Below, in pieces: positions 6,044 to 34,387 of a stretch of 64,000 bases of DNA. Location of the stretch: assembly GCA_037783545.1 (NCBI GenBank), contig JBBELK010000096.1:1116001-1180000 (forward strand), given 5' to 3'. Both the position numbers and the translations under genes were made by a program. The number at the start of each line of letters is the position of its first letter. Within the stretch, counting starts at the first letter, position 1. The notes below the pieces were generated by a model. That model saw only the letters and a list, made by a program, of their open reading frames with translations, did not search any database and had not been told where the DNA came from. The stretch is from Henricia sp. BOLD:AAB3569 (taxonomy: Eukaryota > Echinodermata > Asteroidea > Spinulosida > Echinasteridae).

Positions 6044-6134
6044 ATGTACCGGGACGGCACGGGTGACCGATGGGTGTCTCTCCTGCTTGTGTGCCTCAAA
6101 GTTTTTATAGTTTTTGCGTTGTCAACTCCAACGG
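6044..6134 (+). CDS. Signal-peptide first exon, copy 1
   Basis: The ATG opens 30 codons plus one base and ends at a consensus donor, G|GTAAGC. The peptide starts MYRDGTGDRW, has a hydrophobic core (VSLLLVCLKVFIVFALS), then STPT. This is a textbook signal peptide with an interrupting lysine. The exon ends in phase 1, the entry phase of all nine SRCR exons. The ATG at 6044 is preferred over an upstream in-frame GTG because of the TATA box and the signal-peptide shape. The reading frame runs on past the donor, but those codons are intronic. It is identical to the exon at 13162-13252, so it may be an alternative or redundant first exon. Linkage to the SRCR exons is inferred. Confidence 0.6.
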
Positions 6135-6686
6135 GTAAGCTAAAACACCCTGTATTTTTTTTTTTCAAATTATTTACTTGTTTTTGTAGTTTTTATAGTC
6201 AGAAGTAGAGGTTGGTGGTCACAACCTGGCAGGCTGAATCGATTTTTTTTTCGATTTTCTTTCTAACGTAACATTTACAATATACAATGAGATTCACATG
6301 GTGCTACCGTAAACCCATACACACGTTAACATTTACAAATAAGGAAAAGCGCGAAAAATCAACTGAATACACAATCCGAACGCAGAGCACAATTCAAAGA
6401 TATGCAGATAAACATTTGCACTGTCAGTGTGAATTGTTTAGTGTGTGCATCAATGTGAACGGTTTACCAATATCATATCGGCATTTGAACGGTTTACCGT
6501 TATTATATCCGTATTTGTAACCCATATTCGTACATTTTCGAAACTTGTGTACACATGTATTTTCTGATTTGCAGGCTCATAACTACGGAAATTGAAAAAT
6601 CCTTTTTCGTTTTATTTACACTCTAAAAACAGATTGGTTAAAAAAACTACCAATCTAATTGGTTGACCCCATATTGGTTGTTTCCA

Positions 6687-7690
6687 ACCAATATATTGGT
6701 TAACTAGTGACCAATACGTTGGTTGTTTAGCAACCAATGACATTGGTTGAGTAATAAACCAATCCTTTAACCAATACATTGGTCAATTCTGACCAATATG
6801 TTGGTTGTCCAGCAACCAGTCACATTGGTTGATCAATAAACCAATCCTTTAACCAATACATTGGTCAATTCTGACCAATATGTTGGTTGTCAAGCAACCA
6901 ATGGCATTGGTTGAGTAATAAACCAATCCTTTAACCAATACATTGGTCAATTCTGACCAATATGTTGGTTGTCCAACAACCAATCACATTGGTTGAGTAA
7001 TAAACCAATCCTTTAACCAATACATTGGTCAATTGTGACCAATATGTTGGTTGTCCAACAACCAATCACATTGGTTGAGTAATAAACCAATCCTTTAACC
7101 AATACATTGGTCAATAACGACCAATATGTTGGTTGTCCAGCAACCAGTCACATTGGTTGAGTAATAAACCAATCCTTTAACCAATACATTGGTCAATAGT
7201 GACCAATATGTTGGTTGTCCAGCAACCAATCACATTGGTTGATCAATAAACCAATCCTTTAACCAATACATTGGTCAATTCTGACCAATATGTTGGCTGT
7301 CCAGCAACCAATGGCATTGGTTGAGTAATAAACCAATCCTTTAACCAATACATTGGTCAATTGTGACCAATATGTTGGTTGTCCAACAACCAATCACATA
7401 TTGGTTGAGTAATAAACCAATCCTTTAACCAATACATTGGTCAATAACGACCAATATGTTGGTTGTCCAGCAACCAGTCACATTGGTTGAGTAATAAACC
7501 AATCCTTTAACCAATACATTGGTCAATAGTGACCAATATGTTGGTTGTCCAGCAACCAATCACATTGGTTGGGCAATAAACCAATCCTTTAACCAATACA
7601 TTGGTCAATACGACCAATATGTTGGCTGTCCAGCAACCAATCAAATTGGTTGAGCGATAAATCAATCCTTTAACCAATATATTAGTGACC
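6687..7690. repeat. 82-bp tandem array (left arm of the AACCAAT element)
   Basis: About twelve copies with a strict 82-bp period. For example, AACCAATACATTGG starts at 6769, 6851, 6933, 7015 and so on. Each unit holds several inverted pairs of CCAAT and ATTGG. The array decays to the right, and isolated words continue to about 8140. Short ORFs across it are by-products. Confidence 0.9.
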
Positions 7691-8149
7691 AATATATTGG
7701 TTGTCCAGCAAACAATCATATTGGTTGAGCAATGATGAGCAATTTGTTTAATACATAGGCGAAATGACGGTGACCAATTAATGTTGGTTATCCGGCAGTC
7801 AATCATTGTTTTAGTCATTAACCATTGATTTAAACTTTTGTGATTGGTTGTAAAACAACCAGTCACATTATTCACAATTTGTGACCAACTAGGCTAGATT
7901 CATTATCAGATATCAAGCAGCCTTTCAGCAATTAACCAATCTCCAATGGTTGACATTAGAATTGTGGCACAATCACATTGGTTCAGATATTAACCATCGT
8001 TATATTGGTAATTGGTTCACACATGAGCCAATCTTCAATTGGTTTCAACCAATACCTAATTGGTGCAGAGCTCTGTTAGGCTGATTGTCCGGTAACCAAT
8101 CACATATTGGTTCAACTATCAACCAATCCTTGTTGGTTGCCTACAGTAT

Positions 8150-10660
8150 AGGACCGATTCCACTATTTTGGGGGAGGTCACTGGTGCAAGATGATCCATT
8201 CCAAAGAGAAGTAGAACATAATTGTATATTCAAACTTTGTCATGCAATATCAAGGAATTGAAATTATTGAAATTTCAGTCCTATTATTTTGTCAAAGATT
8301 TTAAGCATTATAGCCTTTATTTACTCATTTCTTAATGCATTTGGAATGACCCTGTATGAAAGTGGAATTACCATGAGCCACGAGGAGCGCTTCATGCTGT
8401 GGTCAGCATTTTTACTGCATGCAGTAGTTTCAAACGGTCAAACACTAGTCAAACTGTTACCTTCGATCCTCTACAATCCGCTGCTTTCTTGCATCCGTTG
8501 TCAGTTTCCTCTGCTTTTCACCCGCTTTTCAGGTAGGATATATGTTTACATTTTATTTTGTATCAACTTGGACAAAAGTAGTTATTGTATAAATTATCTG
8601 TGTATCTTCCGAATAGTGTGGTCTAAAATTCACCGTTTTGTAGAGGTTTTGAAATGAGAGCACGAAACCGATAGAATAATGGGAGAAGCTTTTGGTATAT
8701 TCATCCCACATAAATGGATATTTGAGAAAGATAAGCGATGTTAAGTTGTAATTTAGTGAGTTTTTACTTTGAGGACAGTTCTGACTTTTTCAAAGTTGCA
8801 TGGCATTTACAAAGTACATGTAAATACATTATAATATGGGACGTCCATACAGTACGCACTTTGTATATTCATCCATGGTATATGCATGGGTATGTACAGT
8901 GGTCAGTGCAATCCCCCTCCAAGGACGGCCACCGTGTGCATGCTGTGTGGAGGCTCATGACCAGTTCTTGGCATGGGGTCCTGGTTAGCCTTGAATTTTA
9001 TAGCAGTGCAAACTGCAGTATTTGTGTATCAACTTCCACAGTAATGTCATGAGACAGTTTACACTATATGCCTGTGAAGCAATCTTCCCTGCATATTTTA
9101 ACGTGTTTTTGTTGTTGTTGTTCATTTCATAATTATTGCGTATCTCAGATTGACGTGGACTTCGATCTCTTTTCGGGGAACAGGCTGACACTCGAGGTAC
9201 ATGTAGCAGATAATGGACTTCCATGAGCTAGACTGCTGTAATGACACAGCTGTGCGTCTTGTAGCAGATTTGAATAAACAACATGGAACAGAATGATGAT
9301 GCAGAAGAGGATATGGATGCCGACTATACTCCCTATTCCCAGGTTAGTTTTGCTCTACTTTTTTTGCACAGTATTTTTTAAAACATGACAGAGGTGGTTC
9401 GATTTTTAAAAATAATGTTGACATTCACCGTGCACCTTCGGTAGGTGACCATCCTAGCGCCAGTGGATTCATAAGAATTGGTCAGAGTTGACATTACACA
9501 GAAAAGACTGATAGAAGCCCAGGTTGTATGTTTTATATTAGACTGGAACTTCTCAGAAGAGGGGTCTCTCGAGAGGTACTACAGCAGTGCACTTGCCAGA
9601 CATTGCTTTAAGGAAATTCGCCATTTATTTTGGTGTGACCAATATCTAGTGATATGTTATTAATGCACTCCTATTTATTATTCCTTGATTGCTTCTTTGC
9701 AGAGGACATTATACTACATGTGTAACACAAAGAACAGAGTCTACCTCGAAGGAAAAAAGGTGGAAGCTAGCCAAGCATAGTGGAAAAACGGAGAGCCTTC
9801 ATTGCACTGAAGGTAATTGGTACCATTGAAGATACTTTGGTTTTTGAGGTTTTGGAAACAAAATGTATGCGACATGTTAAATGCCGCCAGTTAGCATAGA
9901 CAGGGTTGGCAGTCACACACATCAATCTGCATGGAAAACTTGCGGTAGGATACTGTATCTGATAGTCCAGATGTAAGGAAAAGAGGACCCAATTATAGCA
10001 GTTAATATGCTTTGCAAGTTTGTGATATTTTACATTGTGTGAGCCTGCTGACTGAAAACTTACACCTATGTCAACAGTTTAACAATTCCGAGTTTCAAAT
10101 TTGCTAACATATATGAACCTTGCTTTTCAGCGTGGAGCCGACTTTGCTGGCTATATCCAGGTGAGGGACGAGGAATGCAGAAATCGGGAAGTGACTAGGC
10201 AGCTACAGGTCCTCATTCTTAGGAAACACAATGCTGGATGCCAAGGAATTGTTTGTTTGTATTAAACAGTCAGGTTATCTATAAAGTGAATTATCTTGTG
10301 AAGGCAAGAAAAGCCATCATCATGTTTGCCTATTACTATTTCTTAAGGAACAATAACGTAATCAGGATACAACAAATTAATATAAAAAAACAGAGTGACG
10401 CAATAACGTTTGTTTACAAACACAGCTAGCGCCAATCAAATATGCATGTAACAGCAGTGACGCTCCAGACGCTTGCGTCTTTTTAAAAATTGTAATATTA
10501 AATTAAATGTCCACTCCATGCATGCAGTACAGAGATAAATAATAATCATCTTTTCAACTCTGCAGCTGTACTGTATAGTATGTGAATCCATGCTCGGTGT
10601 CCATTTTAAATGTATATGCAGCGACATTCTTTAAGATAAAACATGTACAGGATGAACCCC
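8150..10660. other. Unique middle of the AACCAAT element, exon-like fragments
   Basis: This 2.5-kb AT-rich stretch is not made of the AACCAAT words. It contains short open pieces next to splice-like signals. An ATG at about 9282 opens MEQNDDAEEDMDADYTPYSQ and meets CAG|GTTAGT. Possible acceptors occur near 9702 (TTTGCAG) and 10130 (TTTTCAG), the latter before RGADFAGYIQVRDEE. I could not chain them into one open frame without stops. They may be remains of a captured host gene or an old transposase gene, or chance. The 122-codon ORF at 8289-8657 has no recognisable motif. Confidence 0.25.
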
Positions 10661-10734
10661 AGCAATTATGTTGGTCTATATTAAATCATGTTGTTCTGTA
10701 AACAAATTAAACCAAACCACTTGCCTAGCAACTT

Positions 10735-11560
10735 TAACCAATAATATTGGTCATTTCAGCCATTACAATTGGTTAATGTTGACAATTTTTTGGTCTTTTG
10801 AAGCAATATATTTGGTTATCTTTAACAAATATATTGGTTGTCTTGACCAATATGAAATGGTTAGTATTCTAACCAATATGTATTGGCTGGGAATTTAACC
10901 AATCAAGATTGGTTATGGATTGGTTAAAACGTTAACCGATCTAGATTGGTTAAATAAACAACCAAGACATGTTGGTCAATATTCCAACCAATATGGATTG
11001 GTCAACTAAACAACCAAGACATGTTGGTTAGTATTCTAACCAATATGGATTGGTCAACTAAACAACCAAGACATGTTGGTTAGTATTCTAACCAATATGG
11101 ATTGGTTAAATAAACAACCAAGACATGTTGGTTAATATTCCAACCAATATGGATTGGTTAAATAAACAACTAAACAACCAAGACATGTTGGTTAGTATTC
11201 TAACCAATATGGATTGGTTAAATAAACAACCAAGACATGTTGGTTAATATTCTAACCAATATGGATTGGTTAAATAAACAACCAAGACATGTTGGTTAAT
11301 ATTTCAACCAATATGGATTGGTCAACTAAACAACCAAGACTTGTTGGTTAGTATTCTAACCAATATGGATTGGTTAAATATACAACCAAGGGATGTTGGT
11401 TAATATCGTAACCAATATGGATTGGTCAACTAAACAACCAAGACATGTTGGTTAGTATTCTAACCGATATGGATTGGTCAAATAAACAACCAAGAGATGT
11501 TGGTTAGTATTCTAACCAATATGGATTGGTTGAAAAAGTAAACCATATCAGATTGGTTAT
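10735..11560. repeat. 52-bp tandem array (right arm of the AACCAAT element)
   Basis: About a dozen 52-bp units (AACCAATATGGATTGGTTAA, then ATAAACAACCAAGACATG) run from about 10935 to 11530, preceded by degenerate copies. Unit length and sequence differ from the left arm, although both are built from the same inverted CCAAT words. Confidence 0.9.
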
Positions 11561-12427
11561 TTTAACCAATAGATTGGTTGGACACATATCTACCAACCAC
11601 ATTGGTTGAATTTGACCAATATATTGGTTAATTCAACCAATCTGTTTTTAGAGTGTACATTTATTTTCCAAGGGCGATCTGCTTTTCAAGGGCGATCGAC
11701 CCTGAAAACCGATAAATAGTATATTATCTGCATCACTCCATTCACGTCTCGGGCTCCAGTCCCTATGATTGAGGACTGGGTAAGAAAAGCTTTGCGAGTA
11801 GAGACTGGAGCTCGAGTACGCAATGAGTGCAAATGAAGGGGCGGGCGGGCGGGGAGAAAAAAAAAGGGAGTCCAACTTACCTCCTTTATTTTTTTTACAC
11901 GTATACCTGCCCCATACTTACGCTCCTTACACCTTCTTCTCAGTTAAAATCTCTGACTGATAGTTGCCGTCGCCCTCTAACGTTTAGGAGTGGTGCAAAT
12001 AGCCTACATGTATACGCAAACAGCAAAACTGGGCGCAATAGGGTGATGCGGAAAGGGGGTGTGTGACAAATAAAACATGTTCTATGAATGGTCCTTCGAG
12101 GGATTTGCCGCTAAACGAACGGATTAACCGTGATTGACTGGGAATGATGAGAGGATACGCATTATGCCGTATGCCTGCCGTTCTGCTTTCAAATACGCTA
12201 CGTTATACATGTACAAAAGTACATGTTATTTTCGACCCTGCTTTACTGAGATGACACTTGGAACTTATTGAAAGTTCAATACAAAACATTTTCATGAATG
12301 GTTTATTTCGAGCTACAAACACCACTACTTAATTGTGTAATCAAAGAACTCGAATCTTCCACAGACATTGAATATAAACATTTGAGGTGGATTAGAACGC
12401 ACAAGATGCTCTCAGTTGACCTGATAT

Positions 12428-12442: not shown

Positions 12443-13098
12443 GCATCTGCAACGCCAGTACTACCCCAACCCCCGCCCGCCTGAGTTGGAAAACGTCTAC
12501 AAACGGCGTTGTCTCCATGTGATTGAGAGCCCCGTTTTGATTGAGCCTAGTTTTGACTGAGAACCTCCATTTGAACCCTTACTTTGGTATAACCGGGTGC
12601 AAACACGTTGATATTCCATTAGTGCCCCATCATGAGCGTGCTTTCGTTATGACTAATGGTCTGCCAAAACTTATAAAATTGTAATCAATCACACATAATT
12701 CATCTCATGAAATCTAAAAATCAAATTAACCGCAGCAAAACAACTTTTGAGCGATAGACCGACACTCTCAGTACCAAATCAAAACGAGAAAAGATTGGAA
12801 TATATTTTATATAATCAATCTTTCTGCATTTGTGTCGCTGCAAATTACCGGGAAACAAGTCACATTCAGTGCATCATTGTTCACTCGTGTGGTGGCCGTT
12901 CACTTCAAAACACTTTCCGCGCAGACTCGGACGTTTTTCTGGAGTAATTATGGATTTTACTTTCCGTCCTTAGCCTAAACATACTTTCGCATGCGGCTAG
13001 AACCATCTGTACTGTACATTATGAAATTACATGAGTGTACTAGGGGATAACTTAGTACACTGCGGAGTTCTGTCGATTTTATAAACCAGAACAGTCTC

Positions 13099-13107
13099 TA
13101 TATATAA
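13099..13107 (+). promoter_or_regulatory. TATA box, first-exon copy 2
   Basis: TATATATAA, 63 bases upstream of the ATG at 13162, in the same arrangement as copy 1. Confidence 0.5.
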
Positions 13108-13161
13108 TTCGTGCTTCGTAAAAACTCCGGGGAGGAACGTATCACCAGCGACCGTGGCAAA

Positions 13162-13252
13162 ATGTACCGGGACGGCACGGGTGACCGATGGGTGTCTCTC
13201 CTGCTTGTGTGCCTCAAAGTTTTTATAGTTTTTGCGTTGTCAACTCCAACGG
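13162..13252 (+). CDS. Signal-peptide first exon, copy 2
   Basis: Same 91-base exon as at 6044-6134: 30 codons plus one base, hydrophobic core, consensus donor G|GTAAGC, phase 1. This copy is nearer to the SRCR exons (8.8 kb intron) and has no large insertion between it and them, so it is the more likely functional first exon. Spliced to the exon at 22031, the split codon would be GGC (Gly), giving ...STPT-G-SILVRL. That is a normal signal-peptide to SRCR transition. No transcript evidence is available. Confidence 0.6.
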
Positions 13253-14506
13253 GTAAGCTAAAACACCCTGTATTTTTTTTTCTTCAAATTATTTACTTGT
13301 TTTTGTAGTTTTTATAGTCAGAAGTAGAGGTTGGTGGTCACAACCTGGCAGGCTGAATCGATTTTTTTTTCGATTTTCTTTCTAACGTAACATTTACAAT
13401 ATACAATGAGATTCACATGGTGCTACCGTAAACCCATACACACGTTAACATTTACAAATAAGGAAAAGCGCGAAAAATCAACTGAATACACAATCCGAAC
13501 GCAGAGCACAATTCAAAGATATGCAGATAAACATTTGCACTGTCAGTGTGAATTGTTTAGTGTGTGCATCAATGTGAACGGTTTACCAATATCATATCGG
13601 CATTTGAACGGTTTACCGTTATTATATCCGTATTTGTAACCCATATTCGTACATTTTCGAAACTTGTGTACACATGTATTTTCTGATTTGCAGGCTCATA
13701 ACTACGGAAATTGAAAAATCCTTTTTCGTTTTATTTACATTTATTTTCCAAGGGCGATCTGCTTTTCAAGGGCGATCGACCCTGAAAACCGATAAATAGT
13801 ATATTATCTGCATCACTCCATTCACGTCTCGGGCTCCAGTCCCTATGATTGAGGACTGGGTAAGAAAAGCTTTGCGAGTAGAGACTGGAGCTCGAGTACG
13901 CAATGAGTGCAAATGAAGGGGCGGGCGGGCGGGGAGAAAAAAAAGGGAGTCCAACTTACCTCCTTTATTTTTTTTACACGTATACCTGCCCCATACTTAC
14001 GCTCCTTACACCTTCTTCTCAGTTAAAATCTCTGACTGATAGTTGCCGTCGCCCTCTAACGTTTAGGAGTGGTGCAAATAGCCTACATGTATACGCAAAC
14101 AGCAAAACTGGGCGCAATAGGGTGATGCGGAAAGGGGGTGTGTGACAAATAAAACATGTTCTATGAATGGTCCTTCGAGGGATTTGCCGCTAAACGAACG
14201 GATTAACCGTGATTGACTGGGAATGATGAGAGGATACGCATTATGCCGTATGCCTGCCGTTCTGCTTTCAAATACGCTACGTTATACATGTACAAAAGCA
14301 CATGTTATTTTCGACCCTGCTTTACTGAGATGACACTTGGAACTTATTGAAATTTCAATACAAAACATTTTCATGAATGGTTTATTTCGAGCTACAAACA
14401 CCACTACTTAATTGTGTAATCAAAGAACTCGAATCTTCCACAGACATTGAATATAAACATTTGAGGTGGATTAGAACGCACAAGATGCTCTCAGTTGACC
14501 TGATAT

Positions 14507-22030: not shown

Positions 22031-22378
22031 GCAGTATCTTGGTCCGACTTTCTGACGGTCAGACTCCCTCGGAGGGTCGAGTCGAGGTACGAATGGAAGA
22101 CGGTTCCTGGGGGACCTTGTGTGATGATCACTGGGACCTAGCAGACGCCACTGTGGTCTGCCGTCAACTTGGCTACCGCTATGCCATATCAGCCCTGGCA
22201 ATGTTCGGTGGGGGCGAGGGGATTATCAACATGGATGGCGTAGACTGTATGGGGGACGAGTTGACCCTTACCGACTGCCCATACCCCGGGTGGGGCATAC
22301 ACAACTGCGTTCACGCAGAAGATGCAGGGGTAGTTTGCTCCGAATCGCTGCGTCAAGATGAGGACCGACCAATTCCTC
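22031..22378 (+). CDS. SRCR domain 1 exon
   Basis: Acceptor TGTTTCAG|GC, donor C|GTAAGC; 348 bases, phase 1-1. Encodes one full SRCR domain: SILVRLSDG, GRVEV, GSWGTLCDDHWD, ATVVCRQLGY, VDCMGDE, LTDCPYPGWG, HNC, AGVVC. Six cysteines match the group A set; the two extra group B cysteines (after the first strand, and in LGC, here LGY) are absent. SRCR domains act outside the cell in ligand or microbe binding. The last 10 residues form a linker (ESLRQDEDRP). It is the first of the array and joins the signal exon in phase. The 22379-23152 intron holds a small palindromic MITE. Confidence 0.9.
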
Positions 22379-22728
22379 GTAAGCAGCACGTATGCATTAA
22401 AACTACATATACCACCTCAAATATGGATCCTAACCCAATTCATGGAATGTATTACTGAATTCTTTCAATTATGGTCTTACAGTTCCACGAAAAATCCACA
22501 CGCACACTTGATGAGTTTTCATAATTATGAATGACATTGAAACATTAAAAATACCAATTCCCAATTGTTAATTCAAAAGGTTGAATACGGTGAACTTGTG
22601 GATAACTTGACACTGATCGAACAATTATTGTGGTATCGCTTTCAAGTTTCAAGACTGTTCCGCTTCAGTAATTTCATCCAGGTCCAAGCATACGTGACAT
22701 TTCCAGCTTATGGGAGAATCCTGTAGTC

Positions 22729-22824
22729 AGGGATGTGATTTGTTCCGGTTTTCCCGGAATAGTCTTTGCCACAAACCAATGAGACAAAAGAAAGTTCCGG
22801 AAAAACCGGAACAATCACATCCCT
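22729..22824. mobile_element. Small palindromic MITE in intron
   Basis: AGGGATGTGATTTGTTCCGG and its inverse (ending CAATCACATCCCT) enclose about 40 bases. The arms are near-perfect over roughly 30 bases. No target duplication is evident. Confidence 0.7.
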
Positions 22825-23152
22825 GTGTAGTTGAGGGATCTCAGAAACCCCATTTAGGGGGGTTTTCAACCTGATAAAACCTGTCTAAGATAAGCTGACC
22901 TCTGGAGCCACGCCTTTCAAAAACAGCTCTAGTGCAGGAGCTGAAGATATAATGCACTTTAGCCAGAGTGGGGCACCCTGTCCCAGCGGCTCTTACAGAG
23001 GCTGGTGCAGTCAGCCTTGCCACAAAAGGTGTTCCTTCACGTTCCTAACCAATAAAATGTTACATTTATCAGCCTTCTCGATCTTTCAGTCGGAGCATAA
23101 TTTGCGGTTCTTTTTTTTTAACCATGTACTAACTCATTTTGCTTTGTTTTAG

Positions 23153-23485
23153 TTAGCAGTGTTCGCTTGGTAGGAGGCAAATCTCCTTCTTCGGGCCGTC
23201 TGGAGCTCTACTTGCCAGACCAGTGGGGTACCGTATGTAGCCATAACTGGGGTATTGCCGAGGCGACCCTCGCCTGCCGACAACTCGGCTATACATCGGC
23301 CCTCTCTGCCCAAACCGGGTTCGGTCCTGGCTCCGGAACGATACTCCTGGTTGATGTGAGCTGTTCGGGAGAGGAAGCCCGTTTGTCGGACTGCCGGCAC
23401 CGGGGCTGGGGGAACCATGATTGCAGTCACGTTGACGATGTCGGTGTGGTGTGTTCTGGCCGTGTGGAACCCCCAGGCCGTATTG
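23153..23485 (+). CDS. SRCR domain 2 exon
   Basis: Acceptor TTGTTTTAG|TT, donor G|GTGAGT; 333 bases, phase 1-1. Key motifs are SSVRLVGG, GRLELYLPDQWGTVC, ATLACRQLGY, VSCSGEEARLSDCRHRGWG, HDC, VGVVC. Six cysteines in the group A pattern. The PDQWG turn is shared with domains 4 and 6, while domains 1, 3 and 5 have DGSWG or DGIW. This alternation suggests the array grew by duplication of a two-domain unit. An alternative acceptor at TTAGCAG would break the phase. Confidence 0.9.
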
Positions 23486-23574
23486 GTGAGTGTTTTTGTT
23501 TATAGGATAACTTCCGAAGTGATGTCTATTAGGTAAACATCCGTATCACTTTCCAGCGTATCACTTGTGCCAGC

Positions 23575-23812
23575 GTGTTTGTATCAGTGGGCAAAACACT
23601 TATCTCAATTGCATCGTCAACCCAAGCGATATTTTGGGAGCTGTTAAAGGGAATTACACAATCTAACTGCTGATAGGGTTGTGCGCCTTGGCCAGGTAGC
23701 CCCCAGTTGAAGCGAGATGGTTCTGGTGATTTCCTGATGGCAGCGGTAATAATGTCAACAACGTCAGGAGTACCCTGTAGGTAGACATGTGCGCTATACA
23801 AGAACCCAACTT
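23575..23812. repeat. SINE-like interspersed repeat in intron
   Basis: This contains CAGTGGGCAAAACACTTATC and a body that shares its 3' half with 17538-17645. The ORF at 23529-23801 on the minus strand is a by-product. Confidence 0.45.
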
Positions 23813-24011
23813 CTTAAAATATATCCTGAAGAGTACGGGGTTAACAAGTGCCTCTGGCCGTCAGCTGCCAATGTCACCACCCACCTATAACTACCTCGAT
23901 GTTTAGGTGAAAGAAACTTCAAGTTCTGAGCTATTTAAGAGCCAATTAATAGTTCATAAAAATCAGGTAGCGCTTGGAAACGCCCATACTATTAACGATT
24001 ATAATGTAATT

Positions 24012-24295
24012 CCTGGGGCCGATTTCACAAAGCACTAAGACGCGTCACGGGAAGGGTCACTTTTATCTTGGAATTGAAACGCACTGAACTCGTCTAAACT
24101 TTTGTGAAATCGATCCAGTTGATAATTTGTAATAACTGGCGAGTCCTGTTGCTTGATTTAAATACATGACCAGGGGTCCATTTCACAAAGCGCTAAGACG
24201 CGTTTTATGAAGGGTTACTCTTCTTATCTTGGGCGTTGGTATGGAAACTAGGACGCATTGAACTTGTCTTAACTTTTGCGAAATCAATATTTGGA
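24012..24295. mobile_element. Two copies of a TTTCACAAAG MITE
   Basis: Copies at about 24014-24120 and 24172-24293. Each begins GGGGYCSATTTCACAAAG, followed by CGCTAAGACGCG or a close variant, and ends with an inverse such as CTTTTGTGAAATCGATCC. They lie just upstream of the third SRCR exon, the second almost reaching its polypyrimidine region. Confidence 0.65.
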
Positions 24296-24366
24296 CTTGA
24301 TATTTGTGGTGTTGGTGCATTTAACATGTTCTTTACTTTATCCCTTCTTTTTTAAAATAAAACCAG

Positions 24367-24711
24367 GCGTGCGTCTATCAGGTGCTGATGGGCTTTCAGC
24401 ATCGGAAGGTCGCGTGGAGGTCAGTATGTTTGACGGAATCTGGACGACCGTCTGTGACTATCTATGGGACTTTCGATCTGCCACGGTGGTTTGCCGCTAC
24501 CTCGGCTACCGCTACGCTGTTTCCTTTGCCGCCAAATTCGGCGAGGGGAGTGGCGAGGTCCTGATGGGCGCCGTGGAGTGTAATGGGGACGAGGCTAACC
24601 TGGGAGAGTGTTCGTTCTCAGGTTGGGGCTACTCGCGATGTTCCCACAGCCTGGACGCCGGTGTGGTGTGCTCTTCGGTTCCTAGAGATCCTGACGAGGT
24701 TGTGTTACCTG
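24367..24711 (+). CDS. SRCR domain 3 exon
   Basis: Acceptor AAAACCAG|GC, donor G|GTAAGT; 345 bases, phase 1-1. Motifs: GVRLSGADG, GRVEVSMFDGIW, TTVCDYLWD, ATVVCRYLGYRYA, VECNGDEANLGEC, GWGYSRC, AGVVC. Six group A cysteines. Closest within the array to domains 1 and 5 (odd-numbered type). The 24712-25230 intron has no recognised content. Confidence 0.9.
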
Positions 24712-25230
24712 GTAAGTCACGGATATTATATGCTCCTGTTTCAACGACCAAAAAATGCTTTTGACGAACTCACTGGATTGAACCAATAATCAATGGTTGG
24801 CATCAAGTAACCAGTTTGGCATAACGTGATCAGAAATGTAGATTTAAATAATTTTATTTGTAGGGCAGTCATTTTAAAATGCATGCATGAGGCCTTCCTT
24901 CTGAATCCTATGCCTGTAGTAGCTGTTTTTGTTTGAATGCAAGTCGTCCTGTACAAGGTTTGCTTGCCTATCAAGGTAAGGGCTAACAAAGTACAAAGAA
25001 ATCACTCTTTCACACCGAAACAAGCCCGGACTTACCCGTCTCTTCGCAATACGAGTATAGAGCTGGGAGGATGAACTAGTCCGCATATCGAGACATCCAA
25101 ATTGCCTCTGCTCCTATTAGATGAGAAGTTATTTCGAGGATATATTTATGCCAATTATGAAGTATACTTATAGGTTTTCTGAAGGTGTCAGACCCAACAT
25201 CGTCTAAACCAACCTTCTATTTTCTTCAAG

Positions 25231-25575
25231 CTGGAAGTATTCGTCTAACGGGCGGTGACTCCCCATTCGAAGGGCGTATCGAAATATATCTCCCCGACCA
25301 GTGGGGCGTGGTATGCGACGATGAATGGACCATACAGGATGCGGCTACTGCGTGCCGACAGCTGGGCTTCAACTCCGGGGGGCCTGCCTCAGATTCCGGG
25401 AGGTTCGGAGGGGATTTGTTGCCGATACTACTGGGAGACTTCCATTGTCAAGGAGGCGAGCGTCGGTTGGTGGACTGCCTGAGGCAAGAACGAGAACATG
25501 CCAGCTGTGGCCGCAGGGACAGCCCCGCTGTTGTTTGCTCAAATTCAACGAGTGATGGCAGGCGAATGTCGTTTG
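25231..25575 (+). CDS. SRCR domain 4 exon
   Basis: Acceptor TTCTTCAAG|CT, donor G|GTAACC; 345 bases, phase 1-1. Motifs: SIRLTGGDSPFEGRIEIYLP, DQWGVVCDDEW, ATACRQLGF, HCQGGERRLVDC, ASC, AVVC. Six cysteines. The GWG turn before the fifth cysteine is replaced by a charged stretch (LRQEREHASC), so this domain has diverged in its ligand-facing loop. The donor was chosen because it keeps phase 1; reading on would meet a stop at 25617. Confidence 0.85.
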
Positions 25576-25794
25576 GTAACCTCAAACCTTTCATTAATTT
25601 CAAAAACAGTAGGCTTTAACCGGATCGGCTGGGTAGTAGTACATGTACTTGTAACTGGAGTTTCTCGTTGCCCGTATACCCAAAGACCCGGCTGTGGACC
25701 GTCTTGCCACATATGAGCTGAAAAACAGTCTCAAATGTGCACAATTCTCGAAGCAGCTATTCAAACCAGCCATTCGACATCGCGCAGTTCGCTG

Positions 25795-25945
25795 GTCCCA
25801 GTGGTTAAAACATTTGCCTAGTATGCAGGAGGTCGTGGGTTCGATTCCTACCCGAGCACGGTATGAATGTTTCTCGTAGTGTCTCGGGGAAGTGTGCTAA
25901 TCAAGGCACGCCGGGTAAGGGTAATAAAAACCTTAAATAACAAAG
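25795..25945 (+). mobile_element. tRNA-like SINE in intron
   Basis: A B box GGTTCGATTCC at about 25838 with an upstream A-box-like GGTCCCAGTGG, then a non-tRNA tail. The cloverleaf does not close into a clean acceptor and anticodon arm, so a functional tRNA gene is unlikely. Same strand as the receptor gene. Confidence 0.5.
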
Positions 25946-26039
25946 AAATTGTCTCTTTATAAAAATGCAACTGGGAGAATACTAGAGATTCGGCTTCATT
26001 ATATGATTTTATATTTGAAATATGTGTATCTGCTTACAG

Positions 26040-26372
26040 ATGTTCGTCTTACAAATCGTGTATCACCTTCTGCGGGACTTGTGGAAGTAAGGTTAGGTGA
26101 TGGGTCTTGGGGAAGCATCTGTGATGGTGGTTGGGACCTACGAGCCGCCACAGTCGTCTGCCGTCAACTCGGGTACCGTTATGCCATCTCGGCTTTTGTG
26201 ACGCTCAGCACACTGGATACCTTCCTAGACAACGTTCAGTGCAACGGGGGTGAGATGAACCTTGCCGAATGTTCTCACTCCGGGTGGGGTGTCCAAGACT
26301 GCGGTCTTAGAAAGCGTGCCAGCGTGGTGTGCTTCGATGCTCTTCGCAGTGTCGATGAATCGCTCTATACAG
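26040..26372 (+). CDS. SRCR domain 5 exon
   Basis: Acceptor GCTTACAG|AT, donor G|GTAGGG; 333 bases, phase 1-1. Motifs: VRLTNRVSPSAGLVEVRLGD, GSWGSICDGGWD, ATVVCRQLGYRYAISA, VQCNGGEMNLAECSHSGWG, QDC, SVVC. Six cysteines. Very similar to domain 1, including RQLGYRYAISA, which supports internal duplication. The intron to the next exon is only 120 bases. Confidence 0.9.
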
Positions 26373-26492
26373 GTAGGGACACATTTAACAGGTTACCTGG
26401 ACTTAATTATGACCTACTCGCATAATCGGCTGTGCTTGGCCAGGGACGAGATAATAGAAGCAGTAGTCTTGTTTTTACCACTTGTTCCCCAG

Positions 26493-26831
26493 TTGGCACT
26501 GTTCGGTTAGTGGATGGCAGTTCGCCCATGGAGGGGCGCGTGGAGGTGTATCTTCCCGATCAGTGGGGCACGATTTGCGATGACCACTGGGATCTTCAAG
26601 CCGCCACCGTAGTCTGCCGCCAACTCGGCTACAGCTACGTCGTCTCTGCGCACACAAAATTCAGTCGTGGCTCCAGGTCGATTCTCCTGGACGCTGTAGA
26701 TTGCTTTGGATACGAAAGAATGCTGACAAATTGCCGTCACAGGGGCTGGGGCAAGCATGACTGCACCCATGCCGAGGATGTTGGTGTTGTGTGTGCTAAT
26801 GCTCCGCCCGACACGGGTCCGGCTCCAAATG
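26493..26831 (+). CDS. SRCR domain 6 exon
   Basis: Acceptor TGTTCCCCAG|TT, donor G|GTAAGA; 339 bases, phase 1-1. Motifs: GTVRLVDGSSPMEGRVEVYL, PDQWGTICDDHWD, ATVVCRQLGYSYVVSA, VDCFGYERMLTNCRHRGWG, HDC, VGVVC. Six cysteines. Resembles domain 2. A Pro-rich linker (PPDTGPAP) follows, marking the end of the canonical half of the array. Confidence 0.9.
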
Positions 26832-26977
26832 GTAAGATGTTTGGACGTCATATTTTTTGAAGTGTTAGTTTGCGTACGAGCTCTCGTAGCGAAATGACGT
26901 GTGATTTTTGTTGTAAGGCCCGTTATTGTTTCGATGGTAATTACCGAAGATACACCTTACCACATTTCTATCAACAG

Positions 26978-27334
26978 AGGGAGAAATCACCTTCAGGTTG
27001 TTAGAAGGACCTCACACCGGAGAAGGCGTCCTGCAGTATCGCACCACGGCCAATGAATCCTGGAACACCCCCTGCCTTCGCCCTGTGGATCTTCATCATG
27101 TGATTGGCACCAGCGTCTGCAAAACCTTAGATTTCGACAATTTCTGCGGTGCATATGAAGCTGGACCCCTCGACTCTATTTTGCCGGGCGAGTTATTTGG
27201 TTCACCGCGAAAACGCGTCAGCATGTACTGCACGGGCTCTGTCGGCACTGATGCGGTTTGTGGAGTGACTGAGGATACGTCTAGCGGTCCACCTTGCGCA
27301 GATGATCGAGTACTGTGGATTGGGTGTGGTTCAG
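26978..27334 (+). CDS. Divergent SRCR-like domain 7 exon
   Basis: Acceptor CAACAG|AG, donor G|GTAAAG; 357 bases, phase 1-1. It keeps the SRCR opening (ITFRLLEG, GEGVLQYR, ESWNTPC) but loses the CRQLG helix; VCKTLDFDNFC stands in its place. There are seven cysteines, including the late SMYC, GPPC and WIGC. It is called SRCR-like by position, exon size and phase. Identity as SRCR is inferred and needs a profile search. Confidence 0.7.
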
Positions 27335-27501
27335 GTAAAGTGGGGAGATGGGCCTCTGCCATACAGAACCTTGCAACCGACAGTTGGTGTTTACGTTCTT
27401 GTGGCAGTACAGACACAATAACATTACTCTAAACTGTCTTCCATTTATTAGAAATGTTCCTCCGGTAAAAGTTGAGATAACACTTCTTTTTACCATTTCA
27501 G

Positions 27502-27837
27502 GTGTTCAGTTCCGCTTGCAAAATGGTATTTCTGAAAATACGGGACTTCTCCAGGCTCGTTGCCATAACAGCAGGCAGTGGAGGGGCGTCTGCGGTGACG
27601 ATTATTGGACTAGGTCTGCGCATGCGCACCAACTAGCATGCCGCCATCTTGGATTTCTGGAGGCAAACGCAACGTACTACGTAGTGCCCAATATCCTTGC
27701 ATATTCAACTTCGATAGATCGTTTCCCGTATTTCGGGTTCTGCGAGGGGAACGAGAACTCTTTGCTGGAGTGCCAAAAGGGAAGGTCATATTCCATACTG
27801 TGCGAAAGGTGGGCTGGTGTCAGATGCATGGACGCAG
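27502..27837 (+). CDS. Divergent SRCR-like domain 8 exon
   Basis: Acceptor CATTTCAG|GT, donor G|GTAAGA; 336 bases, phase 1-1. Motifs: VQFRLQNGISENTGLLQARC, WRGVCGDDYW, LACRHLGF, FCEGNENSLLEC, GVRC. The core CRxLG and final cysteine pair are kept, but the GWG motif is gone and an extra cysteine appears early. Similar in style to domain 9 (GLLQAR versus GVLQAR), which suggests domains 7-9 form a second subfamily. A 2.3-kb intron filled with repeats follows. Confidence 0.8.
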
Positions 27838-27953
27838 GTAAGAACTAAAAAATACATTACATCTATGTCAACCTTGTTTTCCTGAAGAATCCATCACCAG
27901 TGGTTGTGACCGTGTTGGAAACACACTCAGTAAAGAGCTCCCAAATATCATAA

Positions 27954-29613
27954 CCCTTACGAAAATGTCCTGTGGTATTCCTGTGGTATTCTTGTGGTAC
28001 ATGTAGATACCACAGGAATTACCACAAGAAAATCAATACCACACAATTTTATGTGGTACCCTTACGAACATGTCCTGTGGTATTCCTGTTGTACTGCTGT
28101 GGTACATGTAATTACCACAGGGTACCACACAGATTTGTGTTGTAATACCAATGCCAGATATCCTGATCCTGTGGTAATCTTGTGGTACAGATAGATACCA
28201 CAGAAATACCACAGGAAAAAAACATTATCACAAGAGTACCACACAGGTTTGTGTAGTAATGTCAATGCCAAATATCCTGGTCCTAAATACCACAGCAATT
28301 ACCACAAGAAAAAAATAGGGATGCGTACCACAGGAACCAGAGTACCACAGGAACCGATTACCACACGAACCGAGTACCACACGAACCGAGTACCACAGGG
28401 ACGCGTACCACAGGAACCAGAGTACCACATGAACCGATTACCACATGAACGAGTACCACAGGGACGCGTACCACAGGAACCAGAGTCCCACAGGAACCGA
28501 TTACCACACGGACGAGTACCACAGGGACGCGTACCACAGGAACCGCGATTACCACATGAACGAGTACCACAGGGACGCGTACCACAGGAACCAGAGTCCT
28601 ACAGGAACCGATTACCACACGAACGAGTACCACAGGGACGCGTACCACAGGAACCAGAGTACCATAGGAACCGATTACCACACGAACGAGTACCACAGGG
28701 ACGCGTACCACAGCAGAGTACCACAGGAACCGATTACCACACGAACGAGTACCACAGGGACGCGTACCACAGGAACCAGAGTACCACAGGGACGCGTACC
28801 ACAGGAACCAGAGTACCACAGGAACCGATTACCACACGAACGAGTACCACAGGGACGCGTACCACAGGAACCAGAGTACCACAGGGACACGTACCACAGG
28901 AACCAGAGTACCACAGGAACCGATTACCACACGAAATTTACCACAAAAAGAACCACAGGAACAAGTGGACATGAATATGCAAATCGGAAACACAATGTAC
29001 CAATTTACTGTAATGCACATTGTCGGATGCCATGTATACAGAATGTATCATGTTCTGAATTGAAATTGTACTCATTTATCAAATAGAAATATGCATCAAT
29101 ACATTTTGCATAATGCCATACTTAAAGCATAATGGCCTCTTTTTTGTTTTATGTTTGTTTTTACCCGTGACCAACCATGGATAGATAGCTGCATTTGGCC
29201 AATGGCCTGGTAAACATTTAAGTCTTGAGCACTAAACATTCCGACGCAAGTTAATGCTCTTTGCAGTGGTTCTTGTGGGCACAGAATGAACAACACTGGT
29301 TCAACCCCGAACCACTGCTGAACTGACCTTATAGTCTGGTTTGGCAGCTTTAAGTTGGACAAACCAAAAAAAAAATTGGTAAGATTTCGATTGACTTGAT
29401 TGTTATCACAGGAATATCACCACGGGAATGTTACTACAGGAAATTTACCACAGGAAATTTACCACAGGAATTTTACCACAGGAAATTTACCACAGGAACT
29501 TCCTGTGGTAATAATGTCCTGTGGTATATGTCCCAAAATACCACAGGAATATTCCTGTGGTAATGTCCTGTGGTATTTTTTTGTGGTAATACCACAGGAC
29601 TTTTTCGTAAGGG
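27954..29613. mobile_element. TACCACAG-array DNA element inside an intron
   Basis: Inverted ends CCCTTACGAAAA, one variable base, then GTCCTGTGGTATT match over 26 bases with one mismatch. The left end recurs internally at about 28067. The interior (28300-28940) is a tandem array of about 63-bp units made of TACCACAGGAACCG, ACGAACGAG and GGGACGCG words. The outer parts carry inverted CCTGTGGTA words. No transposase is present. Because the unit length is divisible by three, long ORFs of up to 241 codons arise on both strands and are not genes. No clear target duplication was seen. Confidence 0.8.
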
Positions 29614-29845
29614 AAAGCTCCCTATTATAAAGCTCTAAATGTGATCATCAAGAACATAATACATATGTTGTCGAAACAGTTATACAATCTCTGCGTACAT
29701 AAAAAGGCAATTACTATTGATTCGTGTTAACTATTCTAACCTTTAAGGTGCCAGTTGGGTATAAATTTACGAAAGCATTTACAGGTAGAAATCTGTGTCC
29801 AGTTTAGTTGTATTTTTGCATAGACTTCATGCGCCACATCAGTGT

Positions 29846-29956
29846 CAGTGGCGGATCCAGCCTCATTAAAATACTGACATACAAAGGATTTTAGGGGGCT
29901 GTAACCCTCACTTTTCTTTTGTATTCCTGTATTTTAATGAGGCTGGATCCGCCACT
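29846..29956. mobile_element. CAGTGGCGGATCCAG MITE (hAT-like ends)
   Basis: CAGTGGCGGATCCAGCCTCA and its inverse enclose about 50 bases; the arms extend roughly 29 bases. CAGTGGCGGATC-type ends are common among hAT elements (family knowledge). No 8-bp duplication was seen. Confidence 0.7.
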
Positions 29957-30172
29957 GAGTGCGGGGGTTTCTGTATTCAAATAGGGGACGTTAAACAATA
30001 GGAACAACAAGGACCGCGATTTGGATTCGTGTACAAAACAAATTTGAGCAGTCCAAACAAAAGAGGAACAATAGGACGATGGGCGGTGGGTACAAGACTG
30101 TTTAAACGTTGGAACTCGACATATTTTCCAGCACACAAGCTGTCACGATTTAGCTTTGTCTGTCATTCCCAG

Positions 30173-30508
30173 ATGATGGTGGTTTGGAGTTAAGATTGGC
30201 CGAATCCGAACACGTGGGGTCGGGCGTCTTGCAAGCTCGACTGCGGCCAACAGACCAGTGGGGCGCCGTATGCGGCAATACTTGGGAATACCGAGACATG
30301 TTGGTCGCCTGTCGGCATCTCGGATTTGCGGCAGATGTGAGACTTCAAACGGACACGGTTCCAGTAGAGAACGTGTCCAACGTACCGAACACGACGTTCA
30401 TCACAGCAGTGGGTTGCTTTGGACACGAAAGCTTCCTGTCCCAGTGTGCTTTGGCAGCTGACGGTGAAAGCACTTGCGTAGATTTCCCCTACGCCGAGTG
30501 CATGGCAG
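30173..30508 (+). CDS. Divergent SRCR-like domain 9 exon
   Basis: Acceptor CATTCCCAG|AT, donor G|GTATGC; 336 bases, phase 1-1. Motifs: GLELRLAESEHVGSGVLQAR, DQWGAVCGNTWE, LVACRHLGF, VGCFGHESFLSQC, STC, YAEC. Six cysteines, divergent C-terminal half without GWG. It leaves phase 1, which is exactly the entry phase of the SMB-7TM exon downstream; this is the main argument that the SRCR array and receptor belong together. The connecting intron (30509-31666) is mostly transposon DNA. Confidence 0.8.
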
Positions 30509-30757: not shown

Positions 30758-30767
30758 TGGGATACAG

Positions 30768-31548: not shown

Positions 31549-31666
31549 GAAACCGTCTATTGGCCCAGTTGCATAAAGTATATGTGGTTAAAATATTTCC
31601 AAGTAAATAAATATAATCCATATACCTTTAAAGTGATGGGATGTTCTTGTCGTTTTTACCATTTAG

Positions 31667-33936
31667 AGACGGAAAGGTTTGAAATTCCAGCCGTCTTGTG
31701 CGGAAAAATTAACTACTGTGGCTACGCCTGCAATCAAGGACCACACAATGAGCGGAGAGTATTTGTGCGTCAAACGTGCAAATGTGACGACGCTTGCTCC
31801 TACTTTAATGACTGCTGCTATGACTATCCAGACAACTGCGAGCCCGTCTCTGACTCGAACGAGATACAGATCAGAGGAGTCAACATTCGATACTACGCAT
31901 GCGTCTGGGTTCCAAACAACAAGTATGCAGACAGCTACGAGACGACTGGCTACGCCTTGGTTGGTCTATGCCCGGATGACATGCAGGATGCAGCCACTAG
32001 GAGCGGCTGCGAACGAACTGCTGATGTTGCTGACGTCATCGGTTCCGTGCCAGTCTGCGGGGATGGAGGCGTGGTTTTCAAAAACGTATTCTGCGCCATA
32101 TGCCACGGTGCCAAGATTGAAAATTTACTGAGGTGGATGGTGGAAATCGAGTACTCCGGAGACAAGGTGGAGACTGTCTTACAAGGACTGAATCAAACTG
32201 TGGAAGGGACGCCGACCGGGAGGTATTCGTATCTTCCCCCGGATTCCGTAGCCACTCCACGAAACTGTCCAGTTTACACGGTCCGTACATGCAACAAATC
32301 CCTGGATAGATCGCTTGAGGAAGCATGTGAGGACTACTTTGCGCCTTTATACATTGATGGAGTCCTTTACCACAATCCTCACTGTGGTTTGTGCAACGGG
32401 CTGGTGGTGCCTCCGACGGATGTTTGCATACACAAGGACAACATGTGCACAATGACATGCAGCGGTGACAACTGGGGAGGATGCCTGGGCATCTGTGGCC
32501 GCTCATCTTATCCTGGAATAGAAGCCCTCTTTGATTTTGGATGGGGTGGAGGTGGGGGTACCAAATGTCGACCAGGCGAGCTCTACGATCCTTTTCTGGA
32601 GAGATGCCGCCTTGTTTATTGCGTGTCTGGGAATGCTAACCAGGACAGGGAATGTCGTCAGCTTCCTGTTGTTGATTTCCCGTGGTTTTCGTTGCTGAGT
32701 GATGATTGTACATCAACCCTCAGCAACAGGCTTGATCAAGATGCCTTGTACTGGCAAGCACTCCCCACTAACTACACCACCGGAAGGTCTGTAGCGGACG
32801 AGGAGTTCACCCTTTCCATCATTTTCTCCAAGAACGATGAGGAAATCGTCCTTGGAATCCCGGAACAGCTACATGCCACCTTAGGGTCTTGCAATATCAC
32901 TAATATTGGGATTTACGCCCAAGAAGGGGCATCGCTGTTTTCAGAGTTAGAATCATGCTCAAATGCCACCGTGTTGGCAAAAGATGTATTTAAATCCCAG
33001 GGAGATGCAAATTCTACAAAATATTCGACCCTAGACTTTTTGATATTTAAGACCCTAGAGTGGGCGAATAGCTCATCGTATCACAAGCCTGATACCCTTC
33101 CTGACGCCTGTTTGAACGTTCTTGCACTGAACTGCACACCAGTTCTTTTGAAACCGGACGAGTACGTTAGGATGAGTATGCTTCCGTTCATCACGCACCT
33201 ATCGAGAGGGTATGAATTCGGACCTGACGAGTTTGTCATTTTACCTTACGGCACGGCGGTGGTATGCATTCCCACGAATTGGACGGACAGATCTTCACAA
33301 GCACTCGGTGTAATCACTCTCATCTGTAGCTGCCTGTCGTTAGTGGCGCTAGTGGCAACCTTTATCACATACTGCACGTTTGCCAAGCTCAGGAACACAG
33401 TCGGCATGCACATCTTGAACCTCGTGGTGGCGTTCTTTATCGCGATCCTTTTGTTCGTGTTGGCGCCACTTTTGGAGTTTACCGGATCTCTCTGTGTGGT
33501 ATCCGCATCCATCTCACATTTAGCCTGGATATCAGCTTTCGTTTGGATGACTGTTCTGTCATTAGGCGCATCCAAGACCTTCGCACGGAGAACCGTTCTG
33601 CCCAACCGAAAGCGGCCCGGTAACCGTCTGATGCTGGCCACCATAACACTTGTCTGGGGCGGCGCTTTAATATTCGCCACCACGTGCCTCGTGCTGACAC
33701 TTTGCAACTGCACGTCTGTACAACGCATCTACGACACTTCCACGCCATGTTGGATAACGCTGCCAGTAACGCGCTTAGTTGTCTTCGGCGTTCCAGTTGC
33801 AATGTCCGTGATAATCAACACGATTTCCTTCGTGTTTGTGGTTTGTAACGTCCGCAAGGCCAAGCAAGACAGCGGGTTATTGCATGAGAGAGGCAAATTT
33901 CAGCAAAGGCTAGACGAAATCAAGATATATTCCAAG
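31667..33936 (+). CDS. SMB-like module, Cys-rich ectodomain and TM1-TM5 of a 7TM receptor
   Basis: Acceptor ACCATTTAG|AG (phase 1), donor AAG|GTAATT (phase 0). It opens with a somatomedin-B-like module: CGYAC, CKCDDAC, then DCCYDYPDNC. A long ectodomain follows with HNPHCGLCNG, a Gly run (about 32538) and several N-glycosylation sites. Just before TM1 comes FGPDEFVILPYGTAVVC, a pattern seen in methuselah-like and related class B receptors; a canonical GPS cleavage motif is not evident. Hydrophobic segments: TM1 about 33301-33381, TM2 33398-33480, TM3 33490-33585, TM4 33624-33705, TM5 33750-33850. There is no initiator Met with signal peptide at its start, so it needs upstream exons. Retaining the next intron would stop the protein at 33999, before TM6. 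Confidence 0.9.
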
Positions 33937-34111
33937 GTAATTAACAAACTCCAACGGACATCTTCTTTGCAATTAAGTACACAACATCGCAAGTTGTAGG
34001 TCTAATCCTTAGATCTCATGGGGATGGAGTAAGATAAACACGGGGCTTCTCCGTACCTTTTCCTTTCTGGTGACATACCATAACTAGTTTCTTTCTTTTC
34101 TTGTCAGCTAG

Positions 34112-34387
34112 CTCTCAGCCTTATTCGGCTTGACGTGGATCCTTCCGTTTGTGGCCGAGGCTATTGATCACGTGATCCTGTTTTACATCAGCGGAATCGT
34201 CAACACGCTGCAGGGGGTCTTCATCTTCGTGGCATTCTGCCTGAACCAACGCGTGAGGGCGCTGTGGCGCAAGAAGACGGCGGCTTATCGTGCACCGCCC
34301 AAGTCCACTTCAATTGCTTCGTCTGGTACCCAGAGGCCGACGGTTTCCAGTCAGTTGGACTCAAAGGAGCTGGACACACATCTGTAG
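34112..34387 (+). CDS. Last exon: TM6, TM7 and cytoplasmic tail
   Basis: The acceptor is read as CAGCTAG|CTC, not the earlier TTGTCAG, because only the former keeps phase 0 and yields LSALFGLTWILPF, a recognisable class B/adhesion TM6 (GLTW). TM7 is DHVILFYISGIVNTLQGVFI. The tail has a basic stretch (RALWRKK) and Ser/Thr-rich residues, ending at TAG 34385-34387. No AATAAA lies before the antisense LINE that begins about 70 bases downstream, so the 3' UTR may be very short or use LINE sequence. Confidence 0.85.
   Translation, partial: LSALFGLTWILPFVAEAIDHVILFYISGIVNTLQGVFIFVAFCLNQRVRALWRKKTAAYRAPPKSTSIASSGTQRPTVSSQLDSKELDTHL

Follow-up and report, generated by a model that had tools for sequence, protein, structure and literature searches.

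Gene organisation

Twelve exons on the forward strand of the window (the whole 64,000-nucleotide stretch of DNA that was analysed) were found to join with matching phases, and their conceptual joining gives one open frame of 1,902 residues. This bears out the earlier sequence-only reading, in which nine consecutive phase 1-1 SRCR-type exons were followed in compatible phase by an SMB-like/7TM exon. All 11 acceptors end in AG and all 11 donors begin with GT; every SRCR exon is of phase 1-1, and the last two exons, T1 and T2, join in phase 0. The order is a predicted signal-peptide exon, nine SRCR or SRCR-like exons (S1-S9), an exon for the SMB-like module, Cys-rich ectodomain and TM1-TM5 (T1), and a TM6-TM7 exon (T2).

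The predicted signal-peptide exon (MYRDGTGDRWVSLLLVCLKVFIVFALSTPT; coordinates 13162..13252, donor phase 1), called by hydropathy only, was also the positive control of the start-exon scan described below. A duplicate on the same strand with the same donor (6044..6134), identical at 90 of 90 compared bases, lies within a local duplication in which positions 5345-6620 and 12464-13739 are 99.5% identical. Position 6044, where the region of the earlier reading starts, belongs to this duplicate signal exon and lies outside the SRCR array; the exon is either an alternative first exon or inert.

The first six SRCR exons, S1 (22031..22378), S2 (23153..23485), S3 (24367..24711), S4 (25231..25575), S5 (26040..26372) and S6 (26493..26831), are followed by a membrane-proximal trio composed of the divergent SRCR-like S7 (26978..27334), the divergent S8 (27502..27837) and S9 (30173..30508), which directly adjoins the SMB-like module in the protein. 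Exon T1 (31667..33936) encodes the SMB-like module at about 31717-31842, the Cys-rich ectodomain with a hypervariable Cys loop (residues 1291-1340; 32374..32523), and TM1-TM5 from about 33301. Exon T2 (34112..34387) encodes TM6-TM7 and a tail ending in -DTHL, a class I PDZ-ligand pattern, before the stop. The ectodomain, ~1,600 residues long and including the nine SRCRs and the SMB-like module, constitutes the long modular N-terminus that is a trait of adhesion GPCRs.

Identity of the domains

Eight of the nine SRCR exons scored above the Pfam cut-off for SRCR (PF00530, 26.1 bits), which places the protein in the SRCR superfamily, for which at least one domain is needed. S1 to S6 scored 82-112 bits (105, 106, 97, 82, 88 and 112 bits, respectively), S8 32.4 bits and S9 46.8 bits. 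S8 forms a clade with four sea-star counterparts (support 96/94), and S9 with all six sea-star proteins described below (95/91). S7 had no Pfam match at E<=1. However, a profile built from S7 and its four sea-star counterparts matched canonical SRCRs with 96.8% probability (hhalign), and S7 groups with these counterparts in a 100/100 clade on a long branch. The possibility that S7 is non-coding or not an SRCR was ruled out by the profile match, the clade (for which the bootstrap is not fully settled) and a pN/pS of 0.26. All nine exons thus appear to be of SRCR type as first read, S7 by profile comparison, with six classed by sequence as canonical (S1-S6) and three as divergent (S7-S9).

T1 matched 7tm_2 (PF00002) at 48.9 bits against a cut-off of 20.6. 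Somatomedin_B reached 21.2 bits in the window protein, below its cut-off of 23.1, and was above it in the relatives P0003 (23.6 bits) and P0011 (37 bits). Pfam searches at E<=10, with filters that drop most matches above 0.1, found neither a GPS/GAIN before TM1 in T1 nor the hormone-receptor (HRM) domain of secretin-type class B1. The solved structures nearest to a profile of four T1 relatives were ADGRG6 (46.9 bits) and ADGRD1 (44.5 bits), with PAC1 at 23.3 bits. On these comparisons the protein is classed as an adhesion-like class B (B2) receptor with no detected GPS/GAIN.

Relatives in other sea stars

Six database proteins, LOC119724729, LOC119725128, LOC119724733 and LOC119724415 from Patiria miniata, LOC117301092 from Asterias rubens and LOC110986690 from Acanthaster planci, match the window protein in the order of their parts (SRCRs, SMB-like module, Cys-rich ectodomain, 7tm_2) and share 40-45% identity with it over 93-99% of the SMB-7TM part. 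S9 adjoins the SMB-like module in all of them, and the S9-SMB-Cys-rich-7TM order is collinear in 6 of 6. The S9-to-SMB junction is similar, reading ECMAETERFDIP in P0004 from Asterias and ECIAETERFDIP in P0002 from Patiria, with ECMAETERFEIP predicted in the window; it is less similar in the other four proteins.

The number of SRCRs is two to seven in these proteins compared with nine in the window, and that of canonical outer SRCRs zero to four compared with six. S7-S8 are present in four of the six and missing from P0003 and P0005, indicating that the full S7-S8-S9 trio does not define the family. The T-x-L/I tail is missing from two of the six. The protein names (uncharacterised, with LOC identifiers) give no function.

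The homologue searches were incomplete, as one missed P0002, P0004, P0005 and P0006, which another had found. The search for the same architecture that had been proposed for amphioxus, hemichordates and echinoderms succeeded in echinoderms, in the six sea-star proteins; no sea urchin, amphioxus or hemichordate member was found by searches limited by word and length, which is not evidence of absence.

Copies and relatives in the same genome

A second copy of the gene on the same contig (C96), ~98% identical to the first, has 12 exons, all of whose splice sites retain AG/GT; its 5,709 coding bases contain neither an indel nor an internal stop. In C468, the same nine SRCR exons were found in order with 92-99% identity (S1 seen in part), followed by an intact T1 and a T2.

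T1 has 67 matches in its own genome, among which are fragments and, perhaps, class B receptors of other types. From these, 38 loci were hand-picked as near full-length, one with a stop (C118:385936) and one partial (C9:847155); as they may include haplotype pairs, 38 is not a haploid count. A T2 lies within 5 kb downstream at 38 of the 38 loci. At 33, the 15 kb upstream contain an SRCR exon on the same strand, a count that used 37 SRCR matches hand-picked from 150, with general SRCR matches left out. With the S9-search list alone, an SRCR exon was found upstream at 28 of the 38 loci and downstream at 3. No upstream SRCR exon was present within 15 kb at the remaining 5. One of these, C715, was read for 5 kb upstream with none found, and has an SRCR match at 28.7 kb; as it alone of the five candidate loci was read upstream, family members free of SRCRs are not supported. 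Together, the matches point to a large expanded family in this genome.

Four proteins from ENA contigs (P0009-P0012) seem to consist of just the T1 exon, and are uninformative on upstream exons.

Selection and the variable Cys loop

Pooled SRCR exons compared with C468 gave a pN/pS of 0.31 (p=4.9e-7), indicating purifying selection. Values for single exons were 1.35 for S2, with few changes, 0.91 for S6 and 0.26 for S7. For T1, pN/pS was 0.52 against C468 and 0.42 against C80. Between the two C96 copies, T1 gave 0.98 and the whole coding sequence a dN of 0.009 and a dS of 0.014 (Fisher p=0.09), hence this pair alone gives no sign of constraint. That weak constraint, and the presence on one contig of ~98% identical copies and a duplicated signal exon, which suggest recent duplication or uncollapsed haplotypes, could be taken to indicate a pseudogene or assembly artefact, but this is very improbable given that neither copy has an indel or internal stop and that purifying selection is seen against the more diverged copies.

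The 50-residue Cys loop behaves differently, with pN/pS of 1.8-4.2 in the five paralogue pairs compared and an interaction test at p=3.6e-6. An excess of pN over pS in the loop alone was not significant (p=0.064; two disjoint pairs, from distances rather than a tree). The substitution patterns are thus consistent with purifying selection on the SRCRs and helices and fast change in one Cys loop. The loop of the second copy had 8 matches; it shares 89% identity with that of the first copy and 80-82% with the four that come next. As no donor was found among the 8, gene conversion was rejected as the cause of the variability.

Evidence for a single gene

SRCR arrays are commonly found on secreted proteins, and the locus could in principle hold two adjacent genes, one for a secreted SRCR protein and one for a separate 7TM receptor. 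A sea-star relative, P0008, is annotated as DMBT1-like and ends before TM1; however, its sequence includes the SMB and Cys-rich part and breaks off only after it. The S9-T1 intron of both copies was scanned for an ATG, a hydrophobic stretch and a phase-1 donor, and yielded 0 candidate start exons, whereas the 201-base positive control at the signal exon yielded 1; four other introns yielded 0. As far as a scan demanding a fairly strong donor can show, a separate start for the 7TM gene was therefore rejected, in line with the first reading that the 7TM exon has no start or signal peptide of its own. As the fused sea-star proteins with their similar junction, the second copy, the third array in C468 and the purifying selection on the SRCR exons all agree, a chance neighbourhood of two genes is disfavoured, and the two-gene arrangement is highly unlikely. 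It is almost certain that one gene joins the SRCR array, the SMB-like module and a class B 7TM domain, as originally proposed. The Pfam searches that had been suggested agree for SRCR (8 of 9 exons) and 7tm_2, with SMB below its cut-off.

Relation to known receptors

DMBT1 and the SRCR-array scavenger receptors are secreted or single-pass proteins. They share the tandem SRCR array with the window protein, which, unlike them, ends in a 7TM domain. A snail protein from Biomphalaria glabrata, P0013, which bears the name G-protein coupled receptor 64, also has 7tm_2, and its N-terminal Cys-rich part weakly matches the start of T1 (E=3e-4), but it has no SRCR or Somatomedin_B in Pfam at E<=1.

Among the adhesion GPCRs described for amphioxus are ones with Somatomedin B, Kringle or SRCR domains (Nordstrom 2008, PMC2246102); like the window protein, they have SMB or SRCR among the N-terminal domains of an adhesion-type 7TM receptor, and the account stresses an SMB/Kringle expansion of ten genes, naming SRCR as a further novel domain. 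The sponge adhesion GPCRs Aq712029 and Aq715659 likewise join several SRCR repeats to a 7TM of the adhesion type, but the text describing them names no SMB (PMC4302439). NvX from Nematostella, reported to have some homology to Methuselah, and PARF1 from a planarian are SMB-bearing adhesion-like receptors, comparable by description only, and SRCR is absent from that description (PMC3261222). For SRCR genes of Acanthaster planci, 7tm_2 is given in a table published in 2024 (PMC10855680).

The view that no standard family has this layout thus does not hold, as the unnamed sea-star proteins share it and SRCR-bearing adhesion GPCRs are in print for amphioxus and sponge. The family itself is unnamed, while SRCR-bearing adhesion GPCRs as a kind are already known. 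What is new is the conserved membrane-proximal SRCR set, the large family and the 50-residue Cys loop with its pN/pS of 1.8-4.2.

Proposed function

Taken as a whole, the locus is probably best explained as encoding a class B adhesion-like SRCR-array receptor, with no detected GPS/GAIN, that has a role in recognition. A mechanism leading from recognition to GPCR signalling is plausible, at slightly under an even chance. The outer SRCRs, whose number varies among relatives, would bind polyvalent ligands from surfaces or microbes; specificity would come from the S9-SMB-Cys-rich block and its variable loop, which would also relay the bound state to the helices; and the 7TM domain would signal via a G protein, with no self-cleaved tethered agonist involved. 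In some members, the T-x-L/I tail may engage a PDZ scaffold. Ligand, G-protein coupling, pattern recognition and any immune role are all putative.

The same receptor might instead serve adhesion or developmental patterning, with the SRCRs binding matrix or neighbouring cells, the 7TM domain reporting contact or force, and no immune role. The adhesion-type 7TM and the PDZ-ligand-like T-x-L/I tail fit adhesion receptors, and any microbial ligand is hypothetical, but the large family and the locally fast-changing Cys loop better suit a receptor that recognises changing targets. Neither of these two features is decisive, and the adhesion role is considered the less likely of the two.

Returning to the recognition role, we tentatively propose, as a rather speculative extension, a large sea-star-lineage family of recognition GPCRs in which the number of outer SRCRs varies over a conserved S9-SMB-Cys-rich base, one Cys loop of that base diversifies rapidly, and the scavenger-type ectodomain gates the class B 7TM domain directly, with no GAIN autoproteolysis. 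If true, this would be a genome-encoded, diversified set of immune or self/non-self receptors signalling through G proteins.

Scavenger-receptor domains are generally regarded as modules that bind but do not signal on their own. A conserved, expanded SRCR-7TM family with a fast-changing juxtamembrane loop would offer a testable example in which recognition of patterns or of self feeds directly into G-protein signalling, and likewise one of a class B receptor that carries a very large ectodomain and must switch without a GPS-derived tethered agonist.

Structure of the receptor gene

A twelve-exon gene was found on the forward strand of the window (C96:1116001-1180000), in which a predicted signal-peptide exon (13162-13252) is followed by nine SRCR or SRCR-like exons (S1-S9; 22031-30508), every one of phase 1-1, then by an exon encoding an SMB-like module, a Cys-rich ectodomain and TM1-5 (T1; 31667-33936) and a last exon encoding TM6-7 and the stop (T2; 34112-34387). 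The array and the two exons after it were present as claimed in the sequence-only reading, and the joined frame encodes 1,902 residues with the final stop as its sole stop. Pfam analysis of the conceptual protein bore out the domain assignment for eight of the nine S exons, which scored above the SRCR cut-off, and for T1, which matched 7tm_2, but S7 had no Pfam match and Somatomedin_B in T1 scored slightly below the cut-off. Profile-to-profile comparison of S7 with canonical SRCRs gave a match at 96.8% probability.

The signal-peptide exon is doubled by a local duplication (5345-6620/12464-13739 and 11656-12474/13736-14553; 99.5-99.6% identity), the second copy of the exon starting at 6044 on the forward strand, and the first copy of the duplication includes ~5 kb of additional, in part tandem-repeat, sequence (6620-11656). 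The S8-S9 intron includes a stretch (27954-29613) with a minisatellite (about 28317-28935), where several frames give long, repetitive ORFs. Five retroelement-type coding pieces, on the forward (40220-42511; 44729-45046) and reverse strands (34884-36116; 57959-59596; 60109-60879), matched reverse transcriptase, endonuclease, RNase H, DUF1759 or aspartyl protease.

Evidence for a single gene

The SMB-7TM part was used in a homologue search in which, owing to a length limit, only long proteins were considered. Six of the seven matches came from sea stars and combine regions of SRCR, SMB-like and 7tm_2 type, and the remaining one was a fish adgrg4. Alignment by exon found the S9-T1-T2 order in all six sea-star proteins and S7-S8 also in four, with zero to four canonical outer SRCRs per protein. 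S7, S8 and S9 clustered with their positional counterparts in a domain tree (support 100/100, 96/94 and 95/91), in which the bootstrap was not fully settled and the branch of the window S7 was long. At the predicted S9-T1 junction, the sequence is nearly that of the Asterias (P0004) and Patiria (P0002) proteins, and a scan upstream of T1 found no separate first exon, in agreement with the claim that the 7TM exon has no start of its own. The SRCR array and the 7TM are thus very probably one gene.

A Patiria miniata relative annotated as DMBT1-like (P0008) has six SRCR stretches followed by the SMB/Cys-rich part but stops before TM1; either its gene model is truncated or the protein is a soluble form.

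Copies in the same genome

In the 740.7 Mb assembly, a complete twelve-exon copy (copy 2) was found farther along contig C96, 89-97 kb downstream, with 59 base and 38 residue differences across 5,709 bases, no indels and intact splice dinucleotides; either tandem duplication or an uncollapsed haplotype could account for this copy. Copy 2 has only one signal exon, versus two in the window, and the intron stretch 27954-29613 is absent from the alignment of the two. A further contig, C468, carries the nine SRCR exons in the same order (92-99% identity; S1 seen in part), then T1 (93%) and T2 (96%).

The T1 search gave 67 matches, fragments counted, and because equal-scoring SRCR exons sit on contig pairs (C248/C317, C171/C266, C105/C216 and C353/C372), which suggests uncollapsed haplotypes or recent duplication, family counts are not haploid counts. 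A same-strand SRCR exon was located within 15 kb upstream in 33 of 38 near full-length T1 loci, and T2 within 5 kb downstream in all 38. The S9-search list alone placed an SRCR exon upstream on the same strand at 28/38 loci, against 3/38 downstream on the same strand and 1/38 upstream on the opposite strand. SRCR-like exons preceded T1 in nine of 11 more divergent loci read directly, eight of the nine having an S7-like exon paired with an S8- or S9-like one. At one 62% paralogue locus (L026; C9:614501-624500), a signal-like exon and an S9 come before part of a T1, after which S9 occurs again ahead of a T1.

Selection and a hypervariable Cys loop

The nine SRCR exons pooled against C468 gave a pN/pS of 0.31 (39/2,285 nonsynonymous and 39/717 synonymous sites; p=4.9e-7), with no low ratio for S2 (1.35) or S6 (0.91) singly, and T1 gave 0.52. 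Across the full coding sequence of the window gene and copy 2, constraint was not significant (p=0.09), and 14 of the 38 residue differences lie in 42 residues, a concentration matched by 0 of 20,000 random draws. In a 50-residue Cys loop (residues 1291-1340; 32374-32523), pN/pS was 1.8-4.2 in each of the five pairs compared (six being possible among four copies), versus 0.40-0.98 for T1 as a whole. In two disjoint pairs, the nonsynonymous excess in the loop relative to the remainder of T1 was strong (interaction p=3.6e-6), whereas pN>pS inside the loop by itself was only suggestive (p=0.064).

Receptor class and possible mode of action

Among solved structures, adhesion receptors were nearest in sequence to the helices. 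GPS, GAIN and HRM domains were not detected in T1. Given general knowledge of class B receptors, this makes a tethered agonist freed by GPS cleavage less likely and favours an ectodomain that would couple directly to the helices. A pattern check found an acidic pair and glutamate, presumably the SRCR cation site, in S1, S4 and S6. The C-terminal tail -DTHL (34373-34384) is shared by the window gene, copy 2, C468 and a further contig, C80, and T-x-L/I tails occur in four of the six sea-star proteins, two of the four being close paralogues, and in both snail proteins checked; these tails have the class I PDZ-ligand pattern. We infer both the ligands and the coupling of the window receptor.

Relation to described receptors

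The claim that no standard family has this layout was not supported. Unnamed sea-star proteins share it, SRCR domains on adhesion GPCRs are described for amphioxus (PMC2246102) and sponge (PMC4302439), and an SMB domain is described on the adhesion-like receptors NvX and PARF1 (PMC3261222). In a 2024 study, 7tm_2 appears among five partner domains of Acanthaster planci SRCR genes (PMC10855680; a flattened table, columns as interpreted); the main text does not contain the terms 'GPCR' or 'G protein'. SRCRs and GPCRs are covered in PMC6208332, PMC7308585 and PMC3308324, the accessible portions of which do not describe the present fusion, and no description of an echinoderm family with an SRCR array, SMB and a GPS-less 7TM was found in the portions of open-licence literature searched. 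The window holds a real gene, which belongs to a sea-star-type family without a name and adds a new variant to the SRCR-bearing adhesion-like GPCRs. The bare fusion is less surprising than the scale of the family and its pattern of a conserved base, a variable array and one fast loop.
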